Origin: Planctomycetota bacterium
GTDB lineage: Bacteria > Planctomycetota > Planctomycetia > Pirellulales > UBA1268
Length of the DNA: 64,000 nt
Direction: 5' to 3'
NCBI GenBank assembly: GCA_016872555.1
Contig: VGZO01000016.1
Span: 1 to 64,000, forward strand
The position numbers were made by a program, and so were the translations under genes. This document shows positions 12,075-43,652 of the stretch, one piece after another. The number at the start of each line of letters is the position of its first letter. Position 1 is the stretch's first letter. Under the pieces are notes generated by a model. The model was not told the origin of the DNA and searched no databases. It was given only the letters and a program-made list of their open reading frames with translations.

Positions 12075-12971
12075 ATGGTCGCACGCGGGGCTGCCTGGGG
12101 ACGGGACGGGAAAGCGCGTCATGGTGGCCGTCGGTGCGGCGCGGTCGCATTCCTCCTGGCCGGCATCACGCTCGCCGCCGGTGGTCGGGGACACGCCGAC
12201 GAACCGGGCCCGGTGCGCCTCGAATACCGGTTCCGGTCCGGCGAGGTGCTGCCGATGTCGGTCGCCCACCGGGCGCTCACCGAGACGACGGTCGCGGGCA
12301 CGCGGCAGGCCGTCGAGACCGCCACCGATTCGACGAAGCGGTGGCGGGTGACCGACGTCGACGACATGGGCCGGACGACGATCGAACACTCGGTCGACGA
12401 CGTTTCGATGACGTCGCGCACCAGTGACCGCGGCGAGACGCGGTGGCGCAGCACCGACTCCAGCCCACCCCCCCCGGGCTACGAGACGTTCGCCGACAGC
12501 CTGGGGATCCCGCTCACGCGGCTGGTCATCGATCGTGCCGGGCGCGTCCTCGAGCGCCGCGAACTCCGCCCCCAGCCTCCGCCCGCGACCGGTGACCTGA
12601 TGGTGGTGCCGTTGCCCGACGGGCCGGTCGCGGTCGGCGCCGAATGGACGGTGCCCCAGGAGGTCGTCGTCGAAGTTCCGGGGGGGCCCCGTCGCGCCGT
12701 CCGGACGCGGCTCCGCTACCGTCTCGACGAGCTCCGCGACGGCGTCGCCGTGATCCACGTCGACACCACCGTGCTCACCCCGATCGACGACCCACGGGTG
12801 GAGGCCCGGCTCCTGGAACGGATCTGGGACGGCACGATCCGCTTCGACATCGAACGGGGTCGGGTCGCGAGCCGGTCGACGACGATCGACCGGCGGGTCG
12901 TCGGGTTCAGCGGTGCCGAGTCGAGCCTGCGCTACAAGGCGAGCCTCGAGGAACGTCTTGCCGGCCCCTGA
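12075..12971 (+). CDS. Exported protein of unknown function
   Basis: The 298-residue product has an Arg-rich N-terminus followed by a hydrophobic signal segment (about residues 22-38) ending at GGRGHADE. The mature part starts VRLEYRFRSGEVLPMSV and is rich in short beta-strand-like segments, such as IDRAGRVLERR, GAEWTVPQEVVVEVPGG and TRLRYRLDELRDGVAVIHVDTT. It resembles planctomycete exported proteins annotated only as DUF; I cannot assign a role. The start is well supported by AAGGAG 7 nt before the ATG at 12075. It lies 79 bp after nadK. Confidence 0.75.
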   Translation: MVARGAAWGRDGKARHGGRRCGAVAFLLAGITLAAGGRGHADEPGPVRLEYRFRSGEVLPMSVAHRALTETTVAGTRQAVETATDSTKRWRVTDVDDMGRTTIEHSVDDVSMTSRTSDRGETRWRSTDSSPPPPGYETFADSLGIPLTRLVIDRAGRVLERRELRPQPPPATGDLMVVPLPDGPVAVGAEWTVPQEVVVEVPGGPRRAVRTRLRYRLDELRDGVAVIHVDTTVLTPIDDPRVEARLLERIWDGTIRFDIERGRVASRSTTIDRRVVGFSGAESSLRYKASLEERLAGP

Positions 12972-13005
12972 GTGGCGGTGATCGCCGGCCCGCGCTCGAC
13001 CGTGC

Positions 13006-13034
13006 TTGCCCGCCGCGATCGACTGAAGTATGGT
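13006..13034 (+). promoter_or_regulatory. Candidate promoter of the rbfA-rtcB transcript
   Basis: TTGCCC at 13006-13011 and TATGGT at 13029-13034 are separated by exactly 17 bp. Transcription would start near 13041 and give a leader of about 395 nt before rbfA. Confidence 0.45.
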
Positions 13035-13097
13035 TGCTTATCGGCCGATGATCCTGCGGCTTTTGTGCTGCTGCCCACCCGCGGGCGGAGGTGAATC

Positions 13098-13151
13098 ATG
13101 CACGCGATCGCTTTGATTGCCGTCGTCGACCGCCTGCCGCTGGCCGGCTGA
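13098..13151 (+). CDS. Possible 17-residue leader peptide upstream of rbfA
   Basis: The ATG at 13098 is preceded by GGAGGTGA (13087-13094), an eight-base match to the anti-Shine-Dalgarno sequence at optimal spacing. It reads MHAIALIAVVDRLPLAG and stops at TGA 13149-13151, eight bases before a stable hairpin. It has no run of a single regulatory amino acid. This is either a leader peptide or a chance frame with an unusually good ribosome site. Confidence 0.4.
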   Translation: MHAIALIAVVDRLPLAG

Positions 13152-13158
13152 ACCGCTC

Positions 13159-13181
13159 GATCGGACGTTCCCCGTCCGATC
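13159..13181 (+). promoter_or_regulatory. Hairpin directly after the leader ORF
   Basis: GATCGGACG (13159-13167) pairs perfectly with CGTCCGATC (13173-13181) around a TTCCC loop. No T-run follows, so it is not a standard terminator. It could be an attenuator or an RNA-stability element. Confidence 0.5.
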
Positions 13182-13240
13182 CGCCATCACGGGCCCGCTC
13201 CCCTGGTGATCCGGTTCCGAGCCCACCCGCTCGCTCCTCC

Positions 13241-13269
13241 GGGAAATCTCCGGTTTTCGCCGGTTTCCC
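13241..13269 (+). promoter_or_regulatory. Second hairpin in the rbfA leader
   Basis: GGGAAA pairs with TTTCCC on the outside and CCGG with CCGG on the inside, around a TTTTCG loop, with a 3-nt bulge (TCT) on the left arm. In total it has ten base pairs. It lies midway between the leader ORF and rbfA. Confidence 0.45.
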
Positions 13270-13435
13270 GCAGTTTCCGGTGGCAGGTCTGACATCGCCT
13301 TTCGTGTTGCCCCTCCGGCGACCGTCGGCGACATCGCGCGCCCCCCGCGGCCCACGAGGCAGCTCCGGAAACCTGTCGTTTTCGGCTGCCGCATCCTTCC
13401 ACTGCCACGTCCGACAACTCTCCCGGGAAAACCCC

Positions 13436-13840
13436 ATGGCCAGCCGCCGTTCGCTCCGTCGTCGTTCGTCCCGTTTCCCGTCGCCCGAAGGCGACGACCA
13501 GCCGTCGTTCCCCCGTTCCTCCGCCGTCAATCGAAAGGACCTCCAGCTCTGCCGTCAGGTCGCCGAAGCCCTTCATCTCCTTCTCGGCGACTGCGGCGAC
13601 GACATCCTCCGCGACCTCCACGTCGTCCAAGTGCTTCCCGCCCCCGACGCCACGCAGCTGCTCGTGATCGTCGGCGCGGCACCGGGAGACACGCCTCCCG
13701 ATCCCGGCAGCGTTCTCGAGCGCCTCCAGGCGCGCTCGGGGATGCTGCGCGCCGGCGTGGCCGCGGCGATCACGCGCAAGCGTGCGCCGGCACTGCTGTT
13801 CGAGTACGCCGTGCCCCGGGTCGCGGAGGATCACCGATGA
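13436..13840 (+). CDS. rbfA: RbfA-like ribosome-binding factor
   Basis: The 134-residue product has a basic Ser/Arg-rich tail (about 30 residues) and then a KH-like RbfA domain. Visible features are a QVAEALHLLLGD helix, a LRDLHVVQVLPAPDATQLLVIVGAA strand pair, an LERLQARSGMLRAGVAAAIT helix and an RKRAPALLFEYAVP terminal strand. RbfA binds immature 30S subunits near the 16S 3' region and assists maturation. The usual nusA-infB-rbfA setting is absent. Instead its stop overlaps the rtcB start (ATGA). ATG 13436 is chosen because the open frame upstream looks non-coding. The gene could be a second, specialised copy. Confidence 0.75.
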   Translation: MASRRSLRRRSSRFPSPEGDDQPSFPRSSAVNRKDLQLCRQVAEALHLLLGDCGDDILRDLHVVQVLPAPDATQLLVIVGAAPGDTPPDPGSVLERLQARSGMLRAGVAAAITRKRAPALLFEYAVPRVAEDHR

Positions 13841-14973
13841 CGCATTCCCCATCGCCGGTGACACCGCGGACGTGGCTGGTCGCGCCGCTCGCCGCAGACG
13901 TTCGCCGTTCGATCGACCGGCTGGCCGGATCGGCCGACGTCCGGCAGGTGGCGGTGATGCCCGACGTCCACCGGTCAGGTGACGTCTGCGTCGGAGTCGC
14001 CGTCGCCACGTCCGGCCTCGTCTACCCGGCGGCCGTCGGTGGCGACATCGGCTGCGGGATGGCGGCCCTGCGCTTCGACGCGGCGGCCGACATCCTCGCC
14101 GCCGAGGCCACCGCGCTCGAGATCCTCCGCGGGTTCCGCGGGGTGGTGCCGGCGCTCAAACGGCGGCGTGCGGACGCCGTGGGTGGGCCCGACCCGGAGC
14201 GCCTCTCGGCCGCGGCCCTCGCGCGCGCCGCGCGGCGGGACGGCGCGTGGCAGCTCGGCACACTCGGCCGCGGCAATCACTTCCTCGAACTGCAGGCCGA
14301 CCAGGAGGGGTGGTTGTGGCTGATGGTCCACAGCGGCTCGCGCGGCATCGGCCGGGCGATCGACGCCTGGCACCGCCGCACCGCGGTGCCGGTGGACGAT
14401 GGCGGGCTGGCCGCGCTTGATTCCACCACCGCGGTGGGCCGGGCGTACCTCGACGACGTCGCCTGGGCGCGGGAGTGGTCGCGTGCCAACCGGGCGTGCA
14501 TCGCGCGGGCGGCTGCCGAAATCCTCCGGACCGTGTGCGGCGCCACGGCGGAATGGGGGACGCTGGTCGACTGCGACCACAACCATGTCCGCGCCGAGTC
14601 GCACGACGGGGTCGACCTGCTCGTGCACCGCAAGGGGGCCCTGTCGGCGCGCGCGGGCGAGCGTGGGCTGGTACCAGGGTCGATGGGGACGGCGAGCTTC
14701 CACACCGTCGGACGGGGCTTCGCGGCGGCGCTCGAGTCGAGCTCCCACGGCGCCGGCCGGGCGCTTCCCCGCGGCACGGCGGCGGAGCGGATCGACGCCG
14801 GCCGGCTCGTGCGGGAGATGCACGGCGTATGGTTCGACGCGCGCCGCGCCGGCCAGCTGCGCGACGAGGCACCGTCGGCCTACAAGGACATCCGCGCCGT
14901 GATGCGCGCCCAGCGCGAGTTGACCGCCGTCGAACGCGAACTGCGGCCGGTCCTCAGCTACAAGGCGACCTGA
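13837..14973 (+). CDS. rtcB: RtcB family RNA-splicing ligase
   Basis: A 378-residue GTP- and Mn2+-dependent ligase that joins 2',3'-cyclic phosphate or 3'-phosphate RNA ends to 5'-OH ends. Family motifs are complete: GGDIGCGM (metal-binding Asp and Cys), LGRGNHFLE, VHSGSRG, DCDHNHV, RKGA, VPGSMGTASF, SSHGAGR with the His that takes GMP (about residue 304), and EAPSAYKDI. No archease or rtcR regulator is nearby. The start codon overlaps the rbfA stop as ATGA, so the two are translationally coupled. It ends 15 bp from the end of dnaA, which is on the opposite strand. Confidence 0.9.
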   Translation: MTHSPSPVTPRTWLVAPLAADVRRSIDRLAGSADVRQVAVMPDVHRSGDVCVGVAVATSGLVYPAAVGGDIGCGMAALRFDAAADILAAEATALEILRGFRGVVPALKRRRADAVGGPDPERLSAAALARAARRDGAWQLGTLGRGNHFLELQADQEGWLWLMVHSGSRGIGRAIDAWHRRTAVPVDDGGLAALDSTTAVGRAYLDDVAWAREWSRANRACIARAAAEILRTVCGATAEWGTLVDCDHNHVRAESHDGVDLLVHRKGALSARAGERGLVPGSMGTASFHTVGRGFAAALESSSHGAGRALPRGTAAERIDAGRLVREMHGVWFDARRAGQLRDEAPSAYKDIRAVMRAQRELTAVERELRPVLSYKAT

Positions 14974-42648: not shown

Positions 42649-43652
42649 CGATCACACCGTTCTGCGGCGACTCCCCACCGCCCCGGCGGCCCGTGCCACG
42701 GCTGTCGGTCGTGATCCCCTGCCACAACGAGGCGGCGGTCGTCGCGACCACGCATCGCCGTCTCGTCGCGGTCCTCGAGGGGGCGGGGCTCGAGTTCGAG
42801 GTGGTGTATGTCGACGACGGCAGTCGCGACGAGACGCTCGAGCGACTCGAATGGATCGCGGCCGCCGATCCCCGCGCCCGGGTGATCGAACTGTCGCGCA
42901 ATTTCGGCCAGCAGGCGGCGATGTCGGCGGGACTGGCGGAGACCACCGGCGACGCCGTCGTGCTCATCGATGCCGACCTCCAGGACCCCCCGGAGGTGAT
43001 TCCCGAGATGGTGGCCATGTGGCGCGACGGTGCCGACGTCGCCTACGGGCGGCGCCGCTCGCGCGACGGTGAGACGCGTTTCAAGCTGCTCACCGCGGCC
43101 CTGTTCCACCGCCTCCTGTCGCGGGCGGTACCCCATCCGATCCCGGTCGACACCGGCGACTTCAAGCTGCTCGACCGGGCGGTCGTCGACACGATCGTCG
43201 CCCTGCCCGAGCGGCGGCGCTACCTGCGGACGATGGTCGCCTGGACGGGCTTCCGGCACGAGGCGGTGTGGTACGACCGCCACGCCCGGGCCGCCGGCAC
43301 CACCAATTACTCGCCTCTCAAACTCGCCCGGCTCGCCGGCGACGCTTTGGTGCTGTCGTCAGACCTGCCGATGCGGATGACCTGGGTCCTCGTCGGCGGA
43401 CTGGTCACGGTCGCGACGGTGGCGGCCGTCACCGCCGCCACGGCACCGCCCGGACCTCCCGGCGTGGCAGCGCTGCTGGCCGTCGCCGCCGGCGTGGCCG
43501 CCGCGCCGACCGCCGCGGTGGCTCTCGTCGGGGAGTACGTCGTCCGCACCTACCGCGAGGCACAGCACCGTCCGGCTTGGATCGTGCGCCGGAGGCTCGG
43601 CCGCGGTCTGGGCGCGGCCCGCGGCGGCCCACCCCGCTCCGCCGCCGCCTGA
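42645..43652 (+). CDS. GT2-family polyprenyl-phosphate glycosyltransferase
   Basis: The 335-residue enzyme has a cytoplasmic GT2 domain with LSVVIPCHNEAAVV, VVYVDDGSRDETLE and DADLQDPPEVIPEM (metal-binding DxD and the acceptor site), plus QQAAMSAGLAETTGDAVVLI. Two C-terminal membrane helices follow (MTWVLVGGLVTVATVAAVTAA and AALLAVAAGVAAAPTAAVALV). This layout fits DPM1/ArnC/GtrB-type enzymes that load a sugar onto undecaprenyl phosphate. The start overlaps the second GT39 gene (ATGA), strongly suggesting it makes the donor for both. Confidence 0.9.
   Translation: MTITPFCGDSPPPRRPVPRLSVVIPCHNEAAVVATTHRRLVAVLEGAGLEFEVVYVDDGSRDETLERLEWIAAADPRARVIELSRNFGQQAAMSAGLAETTGDAVVLIDADLQDPPEVIPEMVAMWRDGADVAYGRRRSRDGETRFKLLTAALFHRLLSRAVPHPIPVDTGDFKLLDRAVVDTIVALPERRRYLRTMVAWTGFRHEAVWYDRHARAAGTTNYSPLKLARLAGDALVLSSDLPMRMTWVLVGGLVTVATVAAVTAATAPPGPPGVAALLAVAAGVAAAPTAAVALVGEYVVRTYREAQHRPAWIVRRRLGRGLGAARGGPPRSAAA

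Follow-up and report, generated by a model that had tools for sequence, protein, structure and literature searches.

Why should an operon for an RbfA-like protein and an RNA ligase be preceded by a short open reading frame with a stronger ribosome-binding site than any of the coding-like frames around it? The question is raised by the rbfA2-rtcB locus in a 64,000-nucleotide stretch of Planctomycetota DNA (contig VGZO01000016.1; hereafter the window), whose source genome assembly comprises 162 contigs. On the forward strand, the Shine-Dalgarno (SD) sequence GGAGGTGA (13087-13094) lies 3 nt 5' of an ATG at 13098, which opens an upstream ORF (uORF) of 17 codons, MHAIALIAVVDRLPLAG (13098-13151 including the stop TGA). 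After 7 nt follows a perfect 9-bp hairpin, GATCGGACG-TTCCC-CGTCCGATC (13159-13181), then a composite hairpin, CGGGAAA...TTTCCCG with an inner CCGG/CCGG (13240-13270), and finally the genes rbfA2 (from 13436) and rtcB (from 13837). Both hairpins are part of an untranslated C-rich spacer (13152-13435; C 0.42, G 0.26) that is non-coding in every frame. The SD sequence, its spacing, the ATG and the 17-residue frame claimed in the original prediction, as well as its nine-pair hairpin after the stop and its second composite hairpin, are all present. Its remark that no other start in the window has so complete a ribosome site is correct, since an SD match of at least 7 nt is reached by none of the 37 coding-like ORFs of the window (any start within the first 40 codons), one of at least 6 nt by three and one of at least 5 nt by eight; the sole other case of GGAGGTGA with a start, at 42992, lies within a long open frame.

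The operon consists of rbfA2 (13436-13840, forward strand), which is a second RbfA-like gene, diverged and lacking an SD sequence, and rtcB (13837-14973, forward strand), which encodes an RNA ligase (PF01139, E 1.7e-74) and whose start overlaps the rbfA2 stop. The rbfA2 product scores below the PF02033 cut-off (19.8 versus 34.7 bits), and a full-scoring, canonical rbfA is present elsewhere in the genome. Its AlphaFold model (pLDDT 76.7) has the RbfA (KH-type) fold, as a Foldseek search of the PDB with this model returned RbfA structures as its best six matches (E about 5e-5 to 1e-4). Because RbfA structures came first in that search, we regard the product as a second RbfA-like protein; judged by its predicted fold, rbfA2 is a second, diverged RbfA-like paralogue and not the housekeeping rbfA. 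It has no relative among viral contigs and no match in plasmids. The rtcB alignment shows DINCG/DIGCG and HRKGA, two stretches, shared with the solved RtcB family, that we take to be catalytic. The closest NCBIfam single-family models are PRK09588 and TIGR03073, both below cut-off; TIGR03073, which describes RtcB associated with a release factor, is missed with 130.2 versus 271.8 bits, and no PrfH release factor adjoins rtcB, the neighbours being RbfA-like and DnaA-like proteins. A second RtcB is encoded elsewhere in the genome, and no SD-led uORF was found upstream of its gene.

Comparison with close relatives separates the short frame from the DNA that follows it. In a 95%-identical relative (L036/L004), the uORF carries two synonymous and no nonsynonymous changes and the peptide is identical, while 19 of the 284 spacer sites differ. 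Read in the rbfA2 frame, the spacer changes relative to L036 are 4 synonymous and 15 nonsynonymous, and the other two frames give similar proportions, from which we conclude that the spacer is non-coding. In the sister genus g7 (L040-L043, L044/L014), identity is 85-88% over the uORF, 47-54% over the next 60 nt and 38-51% over the rest, and the sole indel inside the g7 uORFs is of 3 nt and in frame. By these synonymous-only changes, by the sharp fall in identity after the uORF and by the recurrence before related operons described below, the short frame is conserved in relatives, in which respect the original prediction was borne out. When the g7 leader DNA was searched in the 72 family genomes, confirmed matches were found only before the rbfA2-rtcB operon; the two remaining weak matches are 22 and 24 nt long (E 3.3e-4 and 4.1e-4), and a match in G026 without a detected rbfA2 proved to be a contig ending inside the leader and not a separate occurrence. 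Between families the peptides, of 10-23 residues, differ widely. Their C-terminal parts do beat residue shuffles, but a +2 frame control scores equally high, and peptide-level constraint across families is therefore not claimed. By eye, a long inverted-repeat insertion has entered the spacers of L056 and L100 but is absent in L093 of the same genus; the spacer therefore tolerates insertions.

The wider reach of the uORF was assessed from RbfA2 profile searches, which gave hits in 13 of the 72 genomes of the family, 54 of 396 in the order and 45 of 392 in the phylum, besides 25 named loci; the named near relatives with the operon are mostly Planctomycetota MAGs. A uORF was counted as SD-led if it had an SD match of at least 5 and 8-30 codons and lay within 620 nt. 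Our first set comprises 56 distinct loci from the order and the named genomes, with duplicate loci of one genome counted once; it omits the weak matches G374, G199, G190 and G305, G029 (contig end, L014/L072) and a second G028 fragment. With rtcB directly downstream, 21 of 23 loci have such a uORF (shuffles 3.8), compared with 8 of the 27 rbfA2 loci without rtcB (shuffles 7.2); the figures are one of three where rtcB lies upstream and two of three where a contig end cuts the locus. At an SD match of at least 6, 15 of the 23 loci with rtcB (shuffles 0.88) and 5 of the 27 without it (shuffles 1.63) are retained. The phylum sample comprises 27 loci; L127, L129 and L130 were omitted as repeats, and 17 search rows without a locus of their own were excluded. 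It gives uORFs in 7 of 8 rbfA-rtcB loci versus 6 of 19 without rtcB, and in 6 of 8 versus 2 of 19 at the stricter SD match. Fisher's p for rtcB versus no rtcB is 8.7e-6 in the first set and 0.011 in the phylum sample, for locus counts that are non-independent through shared ancestry and come mostly from draft MAGs, the two samples being drawn partly from different classes, which helps. Three of the 31 rbfA-rtcB loci lack a uORF at the threshold used; L098, one of the two order loci scored negative, does carry, by eye, a comparable short frame, whose SD match is 4 nt. Conversely, L049, L058, L060 and L080 have a strong SD-led uORF without rtcB. These exceptions aside, the counts indicate that the uORF tracks the rbfA-rtcB operon and not rbfA2 alone. 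The comparison shows that selection has kept a short, strongly SD-led ORF before rbfA2-rtcB operons across the Planctomycetota, downstream of promoter motifs and about 95-520 nt ahead of an rbfA start that usually has no strong SD sequence. In-frame TAGs in several rbfA-like matches of f44 apparently lie upstream of the gene start and do not represent recoding.

Two kinds of promoter-like element precede these leaders, the sigma70 and ECF labels being our reading of the motifs. In the window, a candidate sigma70-like promoter, TTGCCC-N17-TATGGT, lies at 13006-13034 on the forward strand; on its own it is weak, since 28 of 200 shuffles reach at least its score. Eight other family leaders have TTGAC-type elements with 17-18 nt spacing in a similar place. 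Over the ten family leaders examined, the elements are of TTGAC/TTGCC type with a TA-rich hexamer. They lie 70-100 nt ahead of the uORF and are individually weak, being equalled in 3 to 43 of 200 shuffles. The top-scoring element of L036 is a different one, and the shared register, TTGCCC-N17-TATTCT, was read there by eye; compared with the window at about position 12988, L036 is longer by about 124 bases in the stretch from the upstream gene to the promoter. The second element, which precedes the uORF in other families, is an ECF-sigma-like motif, CGAACC-N14-19-GTC. In the wider set, 28 of the 56 upstream regions contain it, whereas shuffles give 1.3 and the reverse strand gives 1. Where a uORF is present, the motif usually lies 70-140 nt upstream of it, so that the uORF would be transcribed. 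The motif suggests that rbfA2 may belong to a stress sigma regulon. Examples are L047, L075, L079, L082, L083, L091 and L099, and it is also seen at rbfA2 loci without a uORF.

On balance we favour the reading that a translated leader ORF would make rbfA2-rtcB expression depend on the behaviour of ribosomes on the uORF; the recurring uORF is probably a switch that senses translation and controls ribosome or RNA repair, and not a pattern arisen by chance. We propose the following hypothetical sequence of events, in which (i) in normal cells, ribosomes would translate and then leave the uORF, exposing the C-rich untranslated spacer; (ii) the exposed spacer would keep rbfA2-rtcB expression low, most simply via Rho-dependent termination or mRNA decay; (iii) ribosomes stalled on the uORF, or failing to use it, as a result of inhibitors or of rRNA or tRNA cleavage, would relieve this block; (iv) the RbfA-like 30S factor and the RtcB ligase would then be made and could mend 30S subunits or their RNA. 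We infer the translation of the uORF, the sensed signal and the Rho route, while the stress-sensing and repair steps are drawn by analogy with ToiL of E. coli and with RtcB2-PrfH, and the repair role also by analogy with an Anabaena rtcB that is reported to be induced by translation inhibitors (PMC10272220). In each of the 30 tabulated spacers C is more frequent than G, but the rbfA2 coding region of the window is similarly C-rich (C 0.40, G 0.30), so that the spacer composition does not clearly stand apart from coding sequence. The source genome has two Rho-like genes (G000:C12:21233-22480 and G000:C21:36069-37151), one scoring over and one under the family cut-off.

Short translated leaders upstream of a regulated gene are familiar from the erm, cat and amino-acid leader peptides. 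The leader described here shares with sensory uORFs an SD-led short ORF in the 5' leader that is conserved as an ORF, and with erm, as treated in PMC12121999, a short putatively translated leader before the gene to be regulated. It differs from the erm, cat and amino-acid leaders in having no site resembling an intrinsic terminator in 12900-13500, no run of codons for a single amino acid in the peptides (by eye) and no supported helix masking the RBS; the features of a trp-type attenuator are accordingly missing. The closest parallel is ToiL, the uORF of the E. coli toiL-topAI-yjhQ operon, where antibiotics that stall ribosomes on the uORF are described as inducing the downstream operon (PMC12121999). 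A long 5' leader, an SD-led short uORF before a putative stress operon and ribosome problems as the proposed input are common to both. However, the ToiL uORF is described as pairing with the downstream RBS and Rho as acting inside topAI (PMC12121999), whereas such pairing is unsupported here and a role of Rho is one that we propose; no sequence relation is evident. As to function, RtcB2 is reported to act on cleaved 16S rRNA (PMC9223846), and RtcB2-PrfH, as portrayed in PMC9223846 and PMC6514570, is likewise a two-gene operon of sporadic occurrence that couples an RtcB ligase with a ribosome-associated protein. The present RtcB matches TIGR03073 and PRK09588, albeit below their cut-offs. In contrast to that pair, the partner here is RbfA-like and not PrfH, and a leader uORF precedes the operon, whose ligase activity is predicted. 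The rtcBA/RtcR system is also an RNA-repair operon under inducible control, but its control is presented as activator-driven transcription (PMC7790460, PMC9650030), whereas a leader ORF and sigma70- and ECF-like promoters are found here.

Among the alternatives, an ermC-like translational attenuator, in which stalling on the uORF would refold the two hairpins and free the rbfA start, appears rather unlikely, although the order of the elements (uORF, hairpin, hairpin, start) is what it would lead one to expect. The 9-bp stem is unlikely to have arisen by chance, since only 9 of 1000 dinucleotide-shuffled spacers contain a perfect stem of at least 9 bp with a 3-8 nt loop, while the whole leader folds only modestly better than shuffles (z -1.77). 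L036 retains both hairpins, with one change in each, located in the loop. Covariation or conservation of the two stems was the other mark of a controlled leader put forward in the original prediction, and here it failed: the stems persist only in this 95%-identical relative, and neither an equivalent stem nor covariation was found further out. The 9-bp hairpin is absent in L037-L044, eight leaders that have no perfect short-loop stem of more than 6 bp between uORF end and rbfA start, and the composite hairpin was not recognised beyond L036. Searched at gathering score, Rfam gave no match in the window and only tRNAs in the loci of 20 relatives. A candidate hairpin after the uORF in other families, whose 3' arm GGCCAGG is conserved in most alignment rows, was rejected as it shows, by eye, no two-sided compensatory change. 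Pairing with the rbfA start region can be drawn by eye in one genus (L056, L093, L100), where CTCTCGCT can pair with AGCGAGAG before the start, and in L051 (CTCTCAC/GTGAGAG). However, the best duplex between leader and RBS in the window is equalled in 113 of 200 shuffles, and among 28 leaders only L040 and L056 have a duplex matched by at most 10 of 200 shuffles. In folding calculations, placing a ribosome at the start or the stop of the uORF shifts the energy needed to open the rbfA start by at most 1.2 kcal/mol (9 family leaders), and over 16 leaders the ribosome position does not consistently open that start; the computed structures thus do not support a leader-RBS pairing of the ToiL or ermC type that a ribosome on the uORF would relieve. 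Of the translation-controlled leader originally predicted, the conserved SD-led frame stands, whereas the conserved stems do not.

We consider it unlikely that the leader is instead a dedicated sensor of ribosome damage, in which the strong SD sequence of the uORF would compete for 30S subunits and report an intact 16S rRNA 3' end or decoding centre. Cleavage would then abolish this signal and shift translation to the SD-less rbfA2, switching on an RbfA-RtcB operon whose products would capture cut 30S subunits and reseal their rRNA. In line with this idea, the uORF has an SD match of 5-8 nt versus at most 4 nt for rbfA2 in all ten family leaders, strong SD sequences are rare among the other genes of the window, and E. 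coli RtcB re-ligates truncated 16S rRNA according to work cited in PMC10272220. However, weak SD sequences are the rule for the genes of the window, and an SD-less rbfA2 is therefore not special. If true, this would be a counterpart of RtcB2-PrfH, a repair system that takes its cue directly from how its own leader is translated.

A uORF that simply loads ribosomes or permits reinitiation, raising rbfA2 translation without sensing anything, is in our view quite improbable. PMC4833913 describes leader genes located some 10 nt ahead of structural genes as aids to reinitiation, also in Planctomycetes, but the gap between uORF and rbfA2 is 284 nt here and 79-522 nt in relatives, which exceeds the short distances proposed there. 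That the peptide itself is a small functional protein is very doubtful: selection on the ORF within genera would agree with it, but the very different sequences between families and the lack of standalone copies in the leader-DNA search speak against it. Equally hard to sustain is a chance ORF in a GC-rich leader, given uORF counts far above shuffles, or an N-terminal extension of rbfA2, whose frame is indeed open upstream to 13091 in the window and for 273 codons in L036, but for just 43 and 47 codons in L040 and L043, and which the spacer substitutions also contradict.

We therefore return to the leader ORF as a probable switch that responds to ribosome behaviour. If this is true, the uORF would be a regulatory one, found phylum-wide and linked to an operon for RNA repair, and RNA repair switched on by the state of translation would become a testable idea; if our reading is right, it also makes RbfA, after PrfH, the second candidate for a ribosome-docking partner of RtcB. 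Among open-licence papers, we found no report of an RbfA-RtcB pairing, nor of a uORF associated with rtcB and RNA repair.

Some relatives show further genes beside rbfA2. In L045 (2902-5415), an rbfA2 of the same family stands without rtcB and without a uORF and is followed by a gene for an ABC-F-like ATPase, while in L057 (1608-2682, reverse strand) a divergent gene for an RtcA-like RNA cyclase adjoins an rbfA2, both products being named by eye. In Anabaena, an rtcB and a tRNA operon are reported to respond to translation-targeting antibiotics (PMC10272220). An array of ten tRNA genes that adjoins the rbfA-rtcB operon in L051 (107-1213, reverse strand) recalls this stress-induced tRNA operon.
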